A stretch of DNA of 38,682 bases from positions 1-38,682 of the forward strand of contig JABGSE010000023.1 in the NCBI GenBank assembly GCA_018647945.1, written 5' to 3'. Below the pieces are notes generated by a model. That model was not told the DNA's origin. It saw nothing but the letters and a program-made list of their open reading frames with translations, and did not search any database. A program made the position numbers and the translations under genes. The DNA comes from Flavobacteriales bacterium (GTDB lineage Bacteria > Bacteroidota > Bacteroidia > Flavobacteriales > BACL11). Shown piece by piece: positions 26,136 through 34,363 of this stretch. Position 1 is the first letter of the stretch. Each line of letters opens with the position of its first letter.

Positions 26136-27341
26136 ATGAAAACCGTAGTAATTGGTGGTGGAGCGGCTGCATTTTTTGCGGCAATAAACACAAAAGAACA
26201 TTTCCCAAATTCGGAGGTAGTTCTTTTTGAAAAAACAAGCAAACTACTTTCTAAAGTATTGGTTTCCGGTGGGGGAAGGTGCAATGTTACCAACTCGGAA
26301 ACTTCTATTTCTAGTTTTTCAAAATGTTATCCCAGAGGAGAAAAACAACTCAAAAAATTATTTGGTACTTTCAATAATCACCATACCATAAAATGGTTTG
26401 AAAGTAGAGGAGTGGAACTTGTTGCAGAGCAGGACGGAAGGATGTTTCCAAAATCGAACAGATCTCAAACTATTTATGATTTATTCTTGTCCGAAACAGA
26501 AAGATTAGGAATAAAAATACAATTAAAATCAGGGATTAATTCTATAAAACAAGAAGGAGAGAAAATAAATTTGGAAGTAAACGGACAAAACCTCCTTTTT
26601 GATAAAGTGATTGTTTGTACGGGCGGCTCTCCAAAATTAGAAGGATTTAATTGGATCAAAACCTTAGGACATAAAATAGAAAATCCTGTCCCCTCCCTTT
26701 TTACTTTTAATATTCCGAATGAGAACATTACAAAATTAATGGGACTTTCGGTACCTAATGCTATTGTTAGTATTCAGGGTACAAAACTCAAAAATAAAGG
26801 ATCACTTCTTATCACCCATTGGGGAATGAGTGGTCCTGCAGTTCTAAAACTTTCTTCCTTTGGATCTAGAATGCTTTCTGATCAGAAATACGATTTCAAT
26901 ATAAATATTTCGTGGTGTGGGGAAAGTAATTTTGAAGGAGTAAAAGAATATTTTCAAGATGTGATTCGTGCAAATACAAAAAAGAAATTATTTAATATTC
27001 GCCCCTTTAATTTTCCGAAAAGATTGTGGAGTTATTTGTTGCAACGCTCCGAAATATTAGAAGAAAAACCATGGGGAGAGTTAGGAAAAAAACAATTAAA
27101 TAAATTAGTACAAACTATTTGTAACGATACTTACTGGGTAAAAGGAAAAACTACTTTTAAAGAGGAGTTTGTAACTTGTGGAGGTATTAGCCTGGAAGGT
27201 ATTAATATGAAAACCATGGAGAGTAAACACATAAAAAACCTTTACTTTGCAGGAGAAATTTTAGATATTGATGGAGTTACAGGAGGATTTAATTTTCAGG
27301 CCGCTTGGACTACTGCTTTTATCGCTTCAAAACTGAACTAA
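26136..27341 (+). CDS. NAD(P)/FAD-dependent oxidoreductase, BaiN/RdsA (HI0933/YhiN) family
   Basis: 401 residues. The N-terminal dinucleotide site is VVIGGGAAAFFAAI (4-17), followed by the family-specific SGGGRCNVTNSE, VCTGGSPKLEG, LITHWGMSGPAVLKLS and the C-terminal LYFAGEILDIDGVTGGFNFQ. These flavoproteins are widespread and poorly characterised. The start follows the ABC ATPase stop with no gap, and the end overlaps rluF in TAATG. It is cytosolic. The physiological reaction is unknown. Confidence 0.92.
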   Translation: MKTVVIGGGAAAFFAAINTKEHFPNSEVVLFEKTSKLLSKVLVSGGGRCNVTNSETSISSFSKCYPRGEKQLKKLFGTFNNHHTIKWFESRGVELVAEQDGRMFPKSNRSQTIYDLFLSETERLGIKIQLKSGINSIKQEGEKINLEVNGQNLLFDKVIVCTGGSPKLEGFNWIKTLGHKIENPVPSLFTFNIPNENITKLMGLSVPNAIVSIQGTKLKNKGSLLITHWGMSGPAVLKLSSFGSRMLSDQKYDFNINISWCGESNFEGVKEYFQDVIRANTKKKLFNIRPFNFPKRLWSYLLQRSEILEEKPWGELGKKQLNKLVQTICNDTYWVKGKTTFKEEFVTCGGISLEGINMKTMESKHIKNLYFAGEILDIDGVTGGFNFQAAWTTAFIASKLN

Positions 27342-28084
27342 TGAGCGAACCAAAACTTACCCGAATAAATAAATTTTTATCAGAAATAGGATTCTGCTCC
27401 AGAAGAGCTGCTGATAAATTAATAGAACAGGGAAGAGTAAAAATAAATGGAGAAGTTCCGCTTATGGGTACTAAAGTTTCGGAAGAAGATGAGGTAAGTG
27501 TAAATGGAAAAGTAGTGCACAGAGCCAAAAAGAAAAAAATGATTTACCTTGCCTTTAACAAACCAGTTGGTGTGGTTTGCACCACCGACCAAGTAAGGGA
27601 AAGAGATAATATTATCGATTTTATAAATTACCCCACACGAATTTTTCCTATCGGAAGATTGGATAAACCCTCTGAAGGACTTATCTTCTTGACTAATGAT
27701 GGAGATATTGTAAACAAGATATTGCGTGCTCGTAACAATCATGAAAAGGAATATGAAGTAACGGTACACAAGCCAGTAACCAAGGAATTTATTGAAGAAA
27801 TGAGTAATGGAGTTCCTATTTTGGACACTATTACTAGAAAATGTAAAGTAAAACATACTGGGAAAAACACCTTCAAAATTATTTTAACACAAGGATTAAA
27901 CCGGCAAATCCGTAGGATGTGTGAGTACTTGGAATATGATGTAAAAAAACTAAAAAGGGTAAGAATTATGAATATAAAATTAGATATTCCTGTTGGTACT
28001 TACCGTGACTTTACTGCTGCCGAGCTAAATACCATAAATCAATCAGTAGAACTTTCTAATAAAACTTTTGAGGAAGGTAAGTAA
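27341..28084 (+). CDS. rluF: 23S rRNA pseudouridine(2604) synthase
   Basis: 247 residues from the ATG at 27341, chosen over an upstream ATG 36 bases earlier because S4-domain proteins start near LTRINKFLSEIGFCSRR. The N-terminal S4 RNA-binding domain (about 5-65) is followed by the synthase core with catalytic Asp108 in GRLDKPSEGL. The stretch IFLTNDGDIVNKILRARNNH closely resembles E. coli RluF as I recall it, and distinguishes it from RluB or RluE. It modifies U2604 of 23S rRNA. It is the last gene of its + strand group, one base from convergent DUF2480. Confidence 0.93.
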   Translation: MSEPKLTRINKFLSEIGFCSRRAADKLIEQGRVKINGEVPLMGTKVSEEDEVSVNGKVVHRAKKKKMIYLAFNKPVGVVCTTDQVRERDNIIDFINYPTRIFPIGRLDKPSEGLIFLTNDGDIVNKILRARNNHEKEYEVTVHKPVTKEFIEEMSNGVPILDTITRKCKVKHTGKNTFKIILTQGLNRQIRRMCEYLEYDVKKLKRVRIMNIKLDIPVGTYRDFTAAELNTINQSVELSNKTFEEGK

Positions 28085-28085
28085 T

Positions 28086-28592
28086 CTATTTCTTCTTAAA
28101 AACTGGAACAGCAGAACACGCTTCCCCAAACATTAAACTACTAACTGTATTTTGTAATTTTTTAGTAATAGCAATGTATAAGGCTTCTGTTAATGGAATT
28201 TGTCCACAACCTTTTACAATTACTTTTTTACCTTCAAATTCTGAAGGGTTAATTGCGTCAATATTGTTTGTGAAAATTTTCTGAAACACATTTTCTTTTG
28301 TTCCAAAATGGATCTCAGAATTAGCGGTATTTAAGTAGGAAGTTACGAGCATAAAAGCCCACATGGGTACAATTGCATCCGAACTACAATTAAGAGCTAC
28401 AACTTTATCCGTATAGTTGGTGAAATCAAACTCTTTTAGTGCAGTTCGGAATTCTTTTTCTTTCAGGAAAATTCCTTCAAAAAGAAATTCTTTTATATCC
28501 AAAACTGCAATAGATTTTGTTGGGGCATAATCTGTCAAATCAATCGTAATCAAACTACTATTTGCTACTCTATTTACAATTTCGTCACTCAT
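28086..28592 (-). CDS. DUF2480 family protein, last gene of the suf operon
   Basis: 168 residues, matching the Bacteroidota DUF2480 family, of unknown function. Three cysteines sit in motif-like contexts: Cys69 in ALNCSSDAIVPMW, Cys129 in VKGCGQIPLTEA and Cys159 in MFGEACSAVPVF. There is no signal peptide or membrane segment, so it is cytosolic. It starts 2 bases after sufT, and this tight linkage to Fe-S assembly genes suggests a role in cluster or sulfur handling. That role is inferred from context only. Confidence 0.82.
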   Translation of the reverse strand: MSDEIVNRVANSSLITIDLTDYAPTKSIAVLDIKEFLFEGIFLKEKEFRTALKEFDFTNYTDKVVALNCSSDAIVPMWAFMLVTSYLNTANSEIHFGTKENVFQKIFTNNIDAINPSEFEGKKVIVKGCGQIPLTEALYIAITKKLQNTVSSLMFGEACSAVPVFKKK

Positions 28593-28594
28593 TT

Positions 28595-28918
28595 TTATAA
28601 CATTCCTAGTTCTAATTTTGCTTCTTCACTCATCATATCTTTTGTCCAAGTAGGTTCAAAAGTTATTTCTACTTTCACCTTTTTTACAGCAGGAATTACT
28701 CTCACTTTTTCTTCCACCTCAACTGGTAGAGTTTCTGCAACTGGGCAATTTGGAGAGGTGAGTGTCATGGTAATATTCACATCACATTCTTCACTTACTT
28801 CAATATCGTAAATTAAACCAAGTGCATAGATGTTTACAGGTATTTCCGGATCGTAAATCTCACAGATTACCTCTGCCACTTCCTCTCCTATTTTTTGTAA
28901 TTCTTTTTCTGTTTTCAT
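28595..28918 (-). CDS. sufT: SUF-associated Fe-S assembly protein SufT (MIP18/DUF59 family)
   Basis: 107 residues. The MIP18/DUF59 fold shows IYDPEIPVNIYALGLIYDIEV and the conserved Cys58 in MTLTSPNCPVAETLP. SufT-type proteins help maturation or delivery of Fe-S clusters to clients, though their exact step is uncertain. It sits 2 bases downstream of sufE and 2 bases upstream of DUF2480. Confidence 0.88.
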   Translation of the reverse strand: MKTEKELQKIGEEVAEVICEIYDPEIPVNIYALGLIYDIEVSEECDVNITMTLTSPNCPVAETLPVEVEEKVRVIPAVKKVKVEITFEPTWTKDMMSEEAKLELGML

Positions 28919-28920
28919 AA

Positions 28921-29337
28921 TTAGTTATTGAAAGCTAATGCGTATAATTTCATTTGTTTTATCATGGAAACTAATCCGTTTGCACGAGTAGGAGAGAGTT
29001 GCTCTTTCAGTCCTATTTTATTTATAAAGTCAAGTTTTGCAGTTGCAATTTCTGATGGAGCTTGTCCTGAAAGCACATTTATTAATATTGCGACAATTCC
29101 CTTGCTCATAATAGCATCACTATCTGCTGTGTAAATAATTTTTCCATCAGTATGTTCTGCATGTAACCACACTCTACTTTGGCAGCCTCTTATAAGGTTA
29201 TCTTCTGTTTTGTATTTCTCATCAATTGGGGATAATTCTTTTCCTAAATCAATAAGGTATTCGTACTTCTGTATCCAATCGTCAAACATTGCAAAATCCT
29301 CTATTATTTCTTTTTGTATTTCTTGTATTGTACTCAT
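28921..29337 (-). CDS. sufE: Sulfur acceptor protein SufE
   Basis: 138 residues; accepts persulfide from SufS and passes it to SufB. The acceptor is Cys52 in LIRGCQSRVWL, the defining motif. SEIATAKLDFINKIGLKEQLSPTRANGLVSM at the C-terminal side matches the family (shown here for its LSPTRANG core). The start overlaps the sufS stop by one base (TAATG), consistent with coupled synthesis of the SufS-SufE pair. Confidence 0.96.
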   Translation of the reverse strand: MSTIQEIQKEIIEDFAMFDDWIQKYEYLIDLGKELSPIDEKYKTEDNLIRGCQSRVWLHAEHTDGKIIYTADSDAIMSKGIVAILINVLSGQAPSEIATAKLDFINKIGLKEQLSPTRANGLVSMIKQMKLYALAFNN

Positions 29338-30551
29338 TACGATAACATCAATTTTGCCTTTTTAATGGCATTTATACAAAGATCAATTTCCTCTTTAGTA
29401 TTGTATATTGCCAAAGAAATTCGTGCCGTTCCCGGGATGTTAAATTTCTCCATAATAGGTTGTGCACAATGGTGTCCTGTTCTGATTGCAATTCCCATTT
29501 TATCTACAATCATTCCAATATCGTAAGGATGTAAACCTTCAATATTAAAAGATAGGATAGCGGATTTATTTTTAGCCGTTCCGTAAATTTTCACTCCTTC
29601 AATTTTAAGGATTTCAGATGTTACGTATTGTAAGAGTTCATCTTCATACTTTGCAATCGTTTCAACCCCTAAATTAGTTATAAAATCAATTGCAGATTTA
29701 AAAGCAATTACTCCAGCAATATTTGGAGTTCCTGCTTCAAATTTATGTGGTAATTCGGCATAAGTAGTTCCACTAAAACTCACTTCTTTTATCATTTCTC
29801 CCCCTCCTTGATAAGGAGATAATTCGTTTAATATTTCTTCTTTTCCATACAATACACCAACTCCTGTTGGTCCGAACATTTTGTGAGACGAAAAACAATA
29901 AAAATCAGCATTTAATTCTTGCATATTTATGGAAACATGAGAGGCAGCTTGAGCTCCATCAATCAATACTTTTGCTCCTATTTTGTGAGATTTTTCAATA
30001 ATTTCTTCAATATCATTTATTGTTCCCAATGCATTTGAAATATGAGAAACTGCTACTAATTTTGTACTTTCAGAAAGGAGATTGTTAAATTCATTCATAT
30101 CCAATTCCCCATTATCCAAAAGAGGAATTACCTTTAAAGTTGCTTCACTTTGCTCGCAACACATTTGCCAAGGCACAATGTTAGAATGATGTTCTAATTC
30201 TGTAATAATAATTTCATCTCCTTTTTTAAAAAGTGTTCTGAATCCGTTTGCAACTAAGTTGATGGAGTCAGTAGTTCCTTTAGTAAAGATGATTTCATGA
30301 CTGTGTTTCGCACCAATAAACGCTTGAATGGTATTTCTTGTCTCTTCAAATTTATCAGTTGCCAATCCACTTAAAAAATGAACTCCCCTGTGTACATTGG
30401 AGTTCTCATTTTGGTAATAATTAGATTCTGAATCAATAACTGCTTGCGGCTTTTGAGTAGTAGCTCCATTGTCAAAATACACCAAATCCTGTCCGTTTAC
30501 CTTTCGGCTCAGGATAGGGAATTGTTTTCGTATTTTACTGATGTCTAACAT
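29337..30551 (-). CDS. sufS: Cysteine desulfurase SufS
   Basis: 404 residues; a PLP enzyme that takes sulfur from cysteine. ELEHHSNIVPW (118-128) and the PLP lysine Lys224 in SSHKMFGPTG match the group II desulfurases, and Cys362 in RTGHHCAQP carries the persulfide. It is contiguous with sufD upstream (no gap) and overlaps sufE by one base. Confidence 0.97.
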   Translation of the reverse strand: MLDISKIRKQFPILSRKVNGQDLVYFDNGATTQKPQAVIDSESNYYQNENSNVHRGVHFLSGLATDKFEETRNTIQAFIGAKHSHEIIFTKGTTDSINLVANGFRTLFKKGDEIIITELEHHSNIVPWQMCCEQSEATLKVIPLLDNGELDMNEFNNLLSESTKLVAVSHISNALGTINDIEEIIEKSHKIGAKVLIDGAQAASHVSINMQELNADFYCFSSHKMFGPTGVGVLYGKEEILNELSPYQGGGEMIKEVSFSGTTYAELPHKFEAGTPNIAGVIAFKSAIDFITNLGVETIAKYEDELLQYVTSEILKIEGVKIYGTAKNKSAILSFNIEGLHPYDIGMIVDKMGIAIRTGHHCAQPIMEKFNIPGTARISLAIYNTKEEIDLCINAIKKAKLMLS

Positions 30552-31775
30552 TTATAAACTGAAATCTAAATCAACATTTAGTTTTTTGGCAAGTAGTTTT
30601 TGAGCTAATAGTTTAACTTCTTCAACCGAAATATTTTCAATTGCTTCAGATGCGAATGCGTAGGTTAAAACCGCCTTTGCTTCTTCCACTCCAATACCTC
30701 TACTTCTCATGTAAAAAAGTGCATCTTCATCCAATTGTCCGATAGTACAACCATGACTACATTTCACATCATCCGCATAAATTTCCAATTGTGGTTTGCT
30801 GTCAATAGTAGAAGTTTCGCTAAGTAAAAGGTTGTTGTTGGACTGGAATGCATCAATTTTCTGCGCGTCTTGCCTCACCATAATTTTACCATTAAATACT
30901 CCCTTTGAATCTCCTAAATAAATCCCTTTATACATTTCGTTGGAGCGGCAATGAGCTTGTTTATGGTCCACAAAAGTATGATTATCTGCTATCTGATTAT
31001 CATCTAGTACCGAAACCCCATTCATATTACTATCACAATTTGTTCCGTTTTGCTCAAAATTCAAGTTGTTTCTAGTTAGTTCTCCACCAAAAATTAGGGT
31101 GTTTACACAACAGTTAGTATCCGATTCCTGAAAAACATTCAGAGTGTCAATTAAAGTAGAGTTATTGGTATTGTTCTGAATTTTATTGTATTCAATTTTA
31201 GCGTTTTTTGCTACATTTATTTGTGTAAAGTGATTTACAAAACACTTGGATTTGTTCAAATTCTGAATTCGTTCCACAAATTTAATTTCAGCGTTTTCTC
31301 CTACAGAAATCTGATTTCTATATTGTTGAAAATTGTCCGTTTCTGAGTTTGTGAAAAATAAAATTTCAATAGGATTTTCTACCACAATGTTTTTATCAAC
31401 CGAAATGGTAAATCCTTTTTTTGCCAAAGCTGAATTTAAAGAAGACATCTCTGTATTGTTTGTAATATTACCTTCAGAAAAGTTAGAAATAGTAACTCCT
31501 TTAATAGATGGTTTACTTATTAAATTACCATTTACAAAAAGTATTCTATCAACAAGATTTAAAGAGTAATTTTCAATTTCATTTTCCGAAATATCAAAGG
31601 AACTTTCGTCAATTTTAAAATCGTTTTTTACAACTTTTCGTAAGGAAGTATATTTCCACTCCTCATCTTTAATACTCGGAAATCCTTTTGTCAAAAAAGA
31701 ATCCAATAACTCTTTTTTATCAGAAGACAAATTAATTCCTTCTGTATATGATTTTAAATTTTCAATTAATCCCAC
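30552..31775 (-). CDS. sufD: Fe-S cluster assembly scaffold subunit SufD
   Basis: 407 residues, the divergent partner of SufB in the SufBC2D scaffold. The beta-helix core ends with the conserved block EIYADDVKCSHGCTIGQLDE, whose His is the residue implicated at the SufB-SufD interface, followed by FYMRSRGI. The N-terminal PSIKDEEWKYTSLR motif is also typical. Its start overlaps sufC by 10 bases. Confidence 0.95.
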   Translation of the reverse strand: MGLIENLKSYTEGINLSSDKKELLDSFLTKGFPSIKDEEWKYTSLRKVVKNDFKIDESSFDISENEIENYSLNLVDRILFVNGNLISKPSIKGVTISNFSEGNITNNTEMSSLNSALAKKGFTISVDKNIVVENPIEILFFTNSETDNFQQYRNQISVGENAEIKFVERIQNLNKSKCFVNHFTQINVAKNAKIEYNKIQNNTNNSTLIDTLNVFQESDTNCCVNTLIFGGELTRNNLNFEQNGTNCDSNMNGVSVLDDNQIADNHTFVDHKQAHCRSNEMYKGIYLGDSKGVFNGKIMVRQDAQKIDAFQSNNNLLLSETSTIDSKPQLEIYADDVKCSHGCTIGQLDEDALFYMRSRGIGVEEAKAVLTYAFASEAIENISVEEVKLLAQKLLAKKLNVDLDFSL

Positions 31776-32527
31776 TTTTTATCCGCTTCTTTAGTTATCC
31801 AATCGTAGCCTTTTTCTTCAAGCTCATGAGCTAATTCTTTCCCTCCCGATTTTATAATTCTACCATTGTGTAAAACATGTACAAAATCTGGAACGATATA
31901 GTCCAACAACCTTTGGTAGTGAGTAATTACAATAGTTGCATTATCTTCACTTCTTAACTTGTTTACACCATTGGCAACAATTCTAAGTGCGTCAATATCT
32001 AAACCAGAATCAGTTTCATCCAAAATAGATAATTTAGGTTCTAATATTGCCATTTGGAAAATTTCATTTCTTTTCTTTTCTCCTCCCGAAAAACCATCAT
32101 TCATGTTTCTGGAAAGGTACCCTTTTTTGATGCTCAATAACTCCATTTTCTCTCTCAACTTTCTCAATAATTCCTTAGCTGGCATAGGATCTAAACCTGC
32201 AGCTTTTCTTCTTTCGTTAATAGAAGTTTTTATGAAGTTAGAAACTGAAATTCCTGGAATTTCTACAGGATATTGAAAAGATAAAAACACTCCTTTGTGT
32301 GCTCTTTCTTCTGGACTAAGATCCAATAAATCAGTTCCTTCAAAATCTATTTCTCCACCTTCCACTTCATATTCTTCTTTGCCAGCAATTACGGATGCAA
32401 GCGTACTTTTACCCGAACCATTTGGCCCCATAATAGCGTGTACTTGCCCTGTTTTTATTTCAAGGTTAATTCCTTTTAGGATTTGATTGTCTTCAATTCC
32501 TGCTTTTAAATTGTTTATCTTTAACAT
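31766..32527 (-). CDS. sufC: Fe-S assembly ATPase SufC
   Basis: 253 residues; the ABC-type ATPase of SufBC2D. Walker A is GPNGSGKST (35-43), the signature is FSGGEKKRNEI, and Walker B is SILDETDSGLD. There is no transmembrane partner, as expected, because SufC acts in the cytosol. It lies 10 bases after sufB and overlaps sufD. Confidence 0.97.
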   Translation of the reverse strand: MLKINNLKAGIEDNQILKGINLEIKTGQVHAIMGPNGSGKSTLASVIAGKEEYEVEGGEIDFEGTDLLDLSPEERAHKGVFLSFQYPVEIPGISVSNFIKTSINERRKAAGLDPMPAKELLRKLREKMELLSIKKGYLSRNMNDGFSGGEKKRNEIFQMAILEPKLSILDETDSGLDIDALRIVANGVNKLRSEDNATIVITHYQRLLDYIVPDFVHVLHNGRIIKSGGKELAHELEEKGYDWITKEADKKWD

Positions 32528-32537
32528 TTTGGTATTT

Positions 32538-33995
32538 TTAACCTACAGAACCTTCTAGGCTGATTTCTAATAATTTTTGTGCTTCTACTGCAAACTCCAT
32601 TGGTAATTGGTTTAATACATCTTTACAATAACCATTTACAATTAAGGTAATTGCTTGTTCTGTTCCGATTCCTCTTTGGTTGCAATAAAATAGTTGGTCT
32701 TCTCCTATTTTGGAAGTGGTCGCTTCATGTTCTATTTTGGAAGAATTATTTTTCACTTCAATATAAGGGAAGGTGTGTGATCCACATTTATCTCCCATTA
32801 ATAAGGAATCGCATTGTGAGAAGTTTCTTGAGTTTGTTGCTCCTTTTGCAATTCGAACCAATCCTCTATAATTACCGTTACTTTTTCCTGCTGATATTCC
32901 TTTTGCAATAATGGTGCTCTTGGTATTTTTCCCCAAGTGAATCATTTTTGTACCAGTATCTGCTTGTTGAAAATTGTTGGTTACCGCCACTGAGAAAAAC
33001 TCTCCTATAGAGTTATCTCCTTTTAAAATACAAGAAGGATATTTCCAAGTTACTGCAGAACCAGTTTCTACTTGCGTCCAAGAAATTTTCGCATTTTTAT
33101 AACAGATTCCTCTTTTGGTTACAAAATTAAATACTCCACCAACACCTTCAGCATTGCCAGGATACCAATTTTGTACCGTAGAATATTTTATGTCCGCATC
33201 ATCCATTGCAATAAGCTCTACCACAGCAGCATGTAGTTGGTTTTCATCTCTCATTGGAGCGGTACAACCCTCTAAATAACTTACTTGTGAACCTTCATCA
33301 GCAATCAATAAAGTTCTTTCAAACTGTCCTGTTCCTGCTTCATTAATTCTGAAGTAAGTAGAAAGTTCCATGGGACATTTTATGCCTTTTGGGATATAGC
33401 AAAATGAACCATCAGAAAATACTGCAGAATTGAGTGCTGAGAAGAAATTATCTCTAGCAGGAACAACTGTTCCTAAATACTTTTTTACTAATTTTGGATG
33501 ATCCTGTATTGCGTCGGAGATAGAGCAGAATATAATTCCTAAATCTCCTAATTTCTCCTTGAATGAAGTAGCTACCGATACAGAGTCCATAACGATATCT
33601 ACAGCCACATTAGCTAATTTATTTTGTTCATTAATAGAAATCCCTAGCTTATCAAACATCTTTTTCATTTCCGGATCCAAATCATCTAAACTGTCCAAAA
33701 CAGGTTTTTGTTTAGGAGCGGAATAATAAATTATATCTTGATAATTTGGTTTTGCATAACTAACATTTGCCCATTCTGGTTCCTCCATTTCTATCCAAGC
33801 TTTGTAGGCTTTTAGTCGGTAATCTAACATCCATTGTGGTTCATTTTTCTTTGCAGAAATAATACGAACCACATCTTCAGAAAGTCCTTTTGGAATAGTA
33901 TCTGACTCTATATCAGTGGTAAAACCATATTTATATTCGGTTGTAGTTACTTTTTCTAATAACTTATCTTCTGATAGTTGTTTTTTTTCGATCAT
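32538..33995 (-). CDS. sufB: Fe-S cluster assembly scaffold subunit SufB
   Basis: 485 residues, normal for Suf[55 protein letters not shown] and the C-terminal [17 protein letters not shown] are all family blocks. The Cys in YCNQRG corresponds to the cluster-related cysteine of E. coli SufB. It builds nascent clusters with SufC and SufD. It starts 9 bases after the A-type carrier gene. Confidence 0.97.
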
Positions 33996-34004
33996 TATTT
34001 AATT

Positions 34005-34328
34005 TTATAAGGAGAAACTTTCACCACAACCACAAGTTCTACTTGCGTTTGGGTTGTTGAATACAAATCCTTTTCCATTTAGTCCGTCAGAAAATTCAAG
34101 AGTAGTGCCAACCAAGTATAAAAAGCTCTTTTTGTTGACTAAAAGTTTTATTCCATTGTCATCAATTAACTCATCTTCTTCATTTTTGGATTTATCAAAG
34201 TCCAATTTATAGCTCAATCCCGAACATCCTCCACTTTCCACACCAACTCTAACATAGGAATTTTCTTTCTCACCTTTCCCTAGTAAGTGTAGTAATCTGT
34301 CTCTTGCTGAATCACTTATATTTATCAT
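34005..34328 (-). CDS. sufA: A-type Fe-S carrier (SufA/IscA/HesB family), first gene of the suf operon
   Basis: 107 residues from the ATG at 34328. An ATG 30 bases upstream would add a basic extension absent from the family and lies at the promoter, so I rejected it. The three cluster-binding cysteines are Cys35 (SGGCSGLSY), Cys99 and Cys101 (RTCGCGESF). It carries Fe-S clusters to apoproteins. It leads the operon, with an exact -7 box 27 bases before the start. No IscR or SufR regulator gene is adjacent. Confidence 0.93.
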   Translation of the reverse strand: MINISDSARDRLLHLLGKGEKENSYVRVGVESGGCSGLSYKLDFDKSKNEEDELIDDNGIKLLVNKKSFLYLVGTTLEFSDGLNGKGFVFNNPNASRTCGCGESFSL

Positions 34329-34355
34329 CTTATTTAGAATTAATCTAATTTTACG

Positions 34356-34363
34356 CAAAGATA
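34356..34363 (-). promoter_or_regulatory. -7 promoter box of the suf operon
   Basis: The - strand reads TATCTTTG, an exact TAnnTTTG, 27 bases before the sufA ATG, and is followed by the same GCG/CG-like dinucleotides as other starts here. The -33 region has only a T-rich tract. I saw no recognisable Fur or IscR-type palindrome between it and the start. Confidence 0.5.

Follow-up and report, generated by a model that had tools for sequence, protein, structure and literature searches.

The suf run of a Flavobacteriales bacterium (assembly GCA_018647945.1, contig JABGSE010000023.1) ends in a gene for a DUF2480 protein, and this family probably assists the assembly of Fe-S clusters, as an overlooked accessory factor, in bacteria of the Bacteroidota type. 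That role is well supported by the family's recurrence behind Fe-S genes in four arrangements and by its near-invariant cysteines, and the original prediction had suggested it from the cysteines and the suf context. With a probability of about 0.5, DUF2480 is read here as a late-acting Fe-S carrier or insertion factor organised around C129, E157 and C159, which would bind the cluster. What is known of accessory factors in Fe-S assembly comes mostly from proteobacteria, firmicutes and mitochondria, and no paper naming DUF2480, PF10652 or IPR018914 was found in the literature searched, which mostly excluded subscription papers and preprints.

The window (the whole stretch of 38,682 nucleotides that was analysed) contains eight genes in the order sufA-sufB-sufC-sufD-sufS-sufE-DUF59-DUF2480, on one strand and without a break:

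34005-34358, minus strand: sufA (A-type carrier), an ORF named by reading, with homologues at the equivalent place in relatives
32538-33995, minus strand: sufB, an ORF named by reading, with homologues at the equivalent place in relatives
31766-32527, minus strand: sufC (PF00005, E = 7.6e-25, and position in the run)
30552-31775, minus strand: sufD (PF01458, E = 3.4e-79)
29337-30551, minus strand: sufS, cysteine desulfurase (PF00266, E = 4.1e-148)
28921-29337, minus strand: sufE (PF02657, E = 8.8e-47)
28595-28918, minus strand: SufT-type DUF59 gene (FeS_assembly_P; PF01883, E = 1.7e-17)
28086-28592, minus strand: DUF2480 gene, an ORF of 168 aa (PF10652, E = 2.2e-65 over residues 3-167), final gene of the suf run

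The sufA and sufB genes, identified by reading, served as search seeds, and the Pfam scan covered sufC, sufD, sufS, sufE, DUF59 and DUF2480; the true sufA start probably lies inside its ORF. The DUF2480 reading frame runs from 28592 down to 28086, an interval in which the plus strand has many stops, and is separated from the end of the DUF59 gene at 28595 by a gap of 2 bases (28593-28594). On its other side, the DUF2480 gene meets a convergent gene of the plus strand (27305-28084), 3' end against 3' end, and is therefore the last gene of the run. The window protein matches PF10652 at 220 bits against a gathering cut-off of 25, over positions 1-165 of the 165 in the profile, and this score together with the residues kept across the phylum places the match beyond chance. 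The original prediction of a DUF2480 gene at this location, 2 bases downstream of sufT and closing an unbroken suf operon that begins with sufA, is thus confirmed.

The protein has three cysteines of interest, encoded as follows:

28386-28388, minus strand: TGT codon of Cys69 (Cys in 214 of 221 homologues, Asn in 6, an unread residue in 1)
28206-28208, minus strand: TGT codon of Cys129 (Cys in 221 of 221)
28116-28118, minus strand: TGT codon of Cys159 (Cys in 221 of 221)

These counts come from 221 full-length homologues. Of these, 141 are primary copies found in the sampled genomes, that of the window among them, and the others are 80 named relatives, the best 80 of 233 candidates and hence biased toward the window's protein; three second copies and a contig-end fragment (G049, locus L158) were left out. 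Among the conserved candidate ligands, C129, E157 and C159 are invariant in the whole set, and in family f2 every one of the six members has Asn in place of C69. C129 and C159 form the core; among the three cysteines, C69 is under the weakest constraint.

A structural model of the window protein, computed from an alignment of 81 rows (mean pLDDT 87, pTM 0.76), predicts strands at residues 64-68, 93-96, 123-127 and 152-155 and helices at 77-88 and 136-146, with each of C69, C129 and C159 just past the C-terminal end of a strand, so that the three would lie on one edge of the sheet if the sheet is parallel. The tail (163-168, pLDDT below 50) and the block 151-160 (mean 76) are the weak spots of the model, and the C-terminal part modelled separately from 32 rows has identical secondary elements. 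Fold searches with the window model gave no match at E <= 0.001 among 264 in Foldseek, and the best VIA matches were at the level of common arrangements, both for the whole model (Z 5.0, rmsd 3.3, 69 aligned) and for residues 99-168 (Z 3.9, rmsd 3.4, 59 aligned); the want of a match is not taken as evidence of a new fold. A sequence search of the PDB with the 81-row profile had no match up to E 10, and a weak earlier hit to lactate dehydrogenase (E = 0.0059) disappeared with that profile; neither the PDB sequence search nor the fold searches found a homologous carrier of solved structure. The window protein had no NCBIfam match up to E 0.01, and its PHROGs matches were all weak (E up to 0.1), involving families whose function is unknown.

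DUF2480 is a tandem duplication of an alpha/beta unit of about 90 residues, and hhalign delimits the two repeats:

28299-28511, minus strand: N-terminal repeat, approximately residues 28-98, containing Cys69
28098-28256, minus strand: C-terminal repeat, approximately residues 113-165, containing KGC (Cys129) and GEAC (Cys159)

The N-half (28-112) aligns with the C-half (112-168) over 46 gapless columns (E = 9.6e-15), and the alignment pairs C69 with G128, one residue off C129. A half-length form of about 90-100 residues is encoded in 15 genomes of families f13, f16, f29 and f50, always with both KGCG and GExC (15 of 15); four such sequences align by hhalign with the N-half (E = 1.4e-30) and with the C-half (E = 3.6e-32), and two of the proteins match PF10652 at 116 and 89 bits against the cut-off of 25, so that, as judged from sequence, the half-length form is a member of the DUF2480 family. 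A search of the class around genome G125 gave matches in 11 of 98 genomes, all half-length and none in genomes of family f18. The conserved residues of the half-length form alternate between features of the N-repeat (D32, E45, F48, R49), the C-repeat (K127-C129), the N-repeat again (P76, W78) and the C-repeat again (G156-C159). This alternation, assessed by reading, makes a simple deletion from the full-length form unlikely and leads us to read the half-length form as the ancestral single unit.

A search of 296 phylum-wide genomes found a DUF2480 match in 157. The 157 primary copies whose surroundings were examined are 155 of those hits plus copies from G318 and G319, with three second copies in addition; G128 (a chance match of 20.4 bits, under the cut-off) and G018 (a hit whose sequence was not included) were left out, and the copy of G049, cut by a contig end, was counted as unlinked. 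In separate lineages, comprising 18 of 31 families, 103 of the 157 primary copies immediately follow genes of Fe-S assembly, in one of four arrangements, counts that do not represent independent events because place in the operon is inherited within families. The order SufE-SufT-DUF2480, as in the window, accounts for 28 copies; SufA is immediately upstream (Suf-Nfu-SufA) of 41, of which 40 also have Nfu, SufS, SufD and SufC; an IscS-like desulfurase without other genes is immediately upstream of 20 (19 assigned by script, plus L142, placed by hand from gene coordinates with a desulfurase overlap of 1 bp; the desulfurase of L127 is IscS-like by NCBIfam with a score below the cut-off); and in 14 a desulfurase, in some cases IscU, an A-type carrier and a gene X precede the half-length form. 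One further copy (L161) has X alone at a contig end and another (L149) has a desulfurase 1.8 kb upstream.

The half-length loci read Rrf2-IscS-IscU-IscA-X-half in 10 of 11 cases, the eleventh (L161) being cut by the contig end, and desulfurase-A-type-X-half in all four loci of family f13; NCBIfam places the L159 proteins above cut-off, the desulfurase as IscS, the scaffold as IscU and the regulator in the Rrf2 superfamily. X, here X107, is a second uncharacterised gene of the half-length Fe-S operons (107-132 aa), found upstream of half-length DUF2480 in 15 of 15 loci, with no NCBIfam match for the L159 copy and no Pfam match above cut-off for the L159 and L160 copies:

L159:7379-7699, and the equivalent place in L160-L162, L188-L194 and L201-L204: X107

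The remaining 52 of 157 copies are unlinked, meaning that they are not beside any Fe-S assembly gene searched for; some of these loci were viewed over about 1.5 kb upstream (L018 and L019, for example), and L128 and L262 over less than 1 kb. Nine families (f2 and f4-f11) contribute 41 of the 52, every one of their 41 copies being unlinked, and the rest belong to f3 (2), f19 (3), f24 (1), f30 (1), f36 (3) and f45 (1). Among the 80 named relatives, 76 have the SufE-SufT-DUF2480 order and 4 have no linkage. On a quick tree the neighbourhood labels change 12 times, compared with a mean of 73.4 when they are shuffled, a clustering that inheritance of operon place would lead one to expect; the tree has few well-supported deep branches, its deep order was not used, and L142 is still labelled unlinked on it. 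The strict suf linkage proposed originally does not extend to the family, given the unlinked copies, and the proposed partnership with SufT, a neighbour in only 28 of 157, is not supported either: SufT was not detected in the stretches examined of the three other linked arrangements, and a SufT-only partnership as a general rule is rejected by the 75 of 103 linked copies that have other neighbours. Separately, in L049 the full copy is followed, about 1 kb downstream, by a second DUF2480 match, which covers a C-terminal part.

Divergent second copies of DUF2480 in three genomes (G282, G265 and G210) keep C69 and have neither C129 nor C159. All three are in cassettes with the order divergent SufR-like regulator, Fe/Mn superoxide dismutase, DUF2480 copy and FMN reductase, the best NCBIfam match of the regulator being SufR (E of about 1e-31, under its cut-off):

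L155:5866-8802, L156:1082-3609 and L157:6065-8587 (families f2 and f24): SufR-like/superoxide dismutase/DUF2480/FMN reductase cassettes

In the genome that contains the window (1.6 Mb, 97.8% complete), nothing matches the IscU/SufU family (PF01592), which suggests dependence on SUF, with SufE. The genome has three DUF59 matches and two matches to the NifU C-terminal domain; the latter are outside the window (G000:C30:5952-6143 and C30:28114-28314), and one of them is near the third DUF59 match (C30:26953-27120).

At E <= 0.001, Pfam finds DUF2480 alone in the window protein, with no match to A-type carriers (PF01521), SufT/DUF59 (PF01883) or SufU/IscU (PF01592). The A-type carriers SufA, IscA and ErpA have three cysteines, and DUF2480 resembles them in this number, in being an operon neighbour and in its proposed carrier role, but it is a separate Pfam family, and both often occur in one operon (the 41 SufA-adjacent loci). 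Three conserved cysteines are also a feature of SufU and IscU (NifU_N), which DUF2480 further resembles in having desulfurase genes nearby; it again belongs to another Pfam family, and SufU or IscU coexists with it in several operons. SufT is a close parallel: like it, DUF2480 is a small factor that came to notice through its place in suf operons, occupies that place in only some lineages and has a conserved cysteine, whereas its two invariant cysteines and one near-invariant cysteine, internal duplication and half-length form in ISC-type operons set it apart, and Pfam found no sequence relation between the two. SufT is reported to be involved at high Fe-S demand in S. aureus, and of 761 SufT homologues 374 are associated with sufBC, approximately half being outside suf operons (PMC4982691).

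As a late-acting carrier or insertion factor, DUF2480 would receive a cluster (or iron) from either scaffold, SUF or ISC, and pass it along, acting beside an A-type carrier, Nfu or SufT, with C129 and C159, joined by E157 and mostly C69, as a putative thiol/metal site located where beta-strands reach their C-terminal ends. The half-length form would do the same job as a homodimer with four cysteines, and the fused form would retain one complete site and one modified half. A late step is favoured because SufE, SufU or IscU is already beside DUF2480 in many loci and late factors (A-type, Nfu, SufT) often adjoin it. The predicted position of the three cysteines at strand ends (mean pLDDT 87) is in keeping with this reading, as is the absence of an IscU/SufU member from the window's genome, for which SUF is seemingly the scaffold route. 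Against it are the 52 unlinked copies, including all 41 in f2 and f4-f11, the Asn at position 69 in f2, the low-pLDDT C-terminal stretches and the lack of a carrier homologue of known structure. A bolder version, which we offer tentatively and consider possible rather than likely, is that DUF2480 is a new carrier family serving both ISC and SUF, in which an ancestral four-cysteine (two KGC, two GExC) half-length homodimer in ISC-type operons was later duplicated and fused to give an asymmetric three-cysteine site in SUF operons.

The joint loss of C129 and C159 from all three second copies agrees with the carrier reading and also with its main rival, a persulfide or thiol-disulfide relay, in which the two cysteines would receive the desulfurase's sulfur (or reduce a persulfide) and transfer the sulfur to a scaffold or other acceptor. 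Such a relay, somewhat doubtful in our estimation, would better suit the 20 copies directly behind a lone desulfurase, and KGCG and GExC are present in every half-length form; however, the fuller operons already own a sulfur acceptor (SufE in 28 of 28 SufT-type loci, SufU detected in 6 of 41 SufA-type loci, IscU in 10 ISC-type loci), and the DUF2480 gene is often behind late-acting factors.

The second copies, lying between superoxide dismutase and FMN reductase near a SufR-like regulator in two families, may instead point to DUF2480 as something other than a carrier, an oxidative-stress or redox helper that serves Fe-S assembly through repair, protection or sensing. This seems unlikely: the second copies lack the core cysteines and so may do a different job, and the accompanying contrast in COX1 is weak. 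COX1 is matched in all 157 genomes that have a DUF2480 match (that of G128 being a chance match) and in 128 of the 139 that have none, but shared descent confounds the comparison, and most of the contrast comes from one family, f18, to which 8 of the 11 genomes lacking a COX1 match belong. The location of all 41 copies of f2 and f4-f11 elsewhere would suit a conserved protein of another pathway that has no specific Fe-S role and hitch-hikes in some suf operons, an explanation made improbable by the occurrence of the gene behind four different Fe-S arrangements, including, as the half-length form, ISC-type operons.

The internal duplication, the half-length form and the divergent second copies of DUF2480 are new in this analysis. 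Fe-S assembly is essential, and DUF2480, present across much of the Bacteroidota, would add to it a factor that is directly testable.
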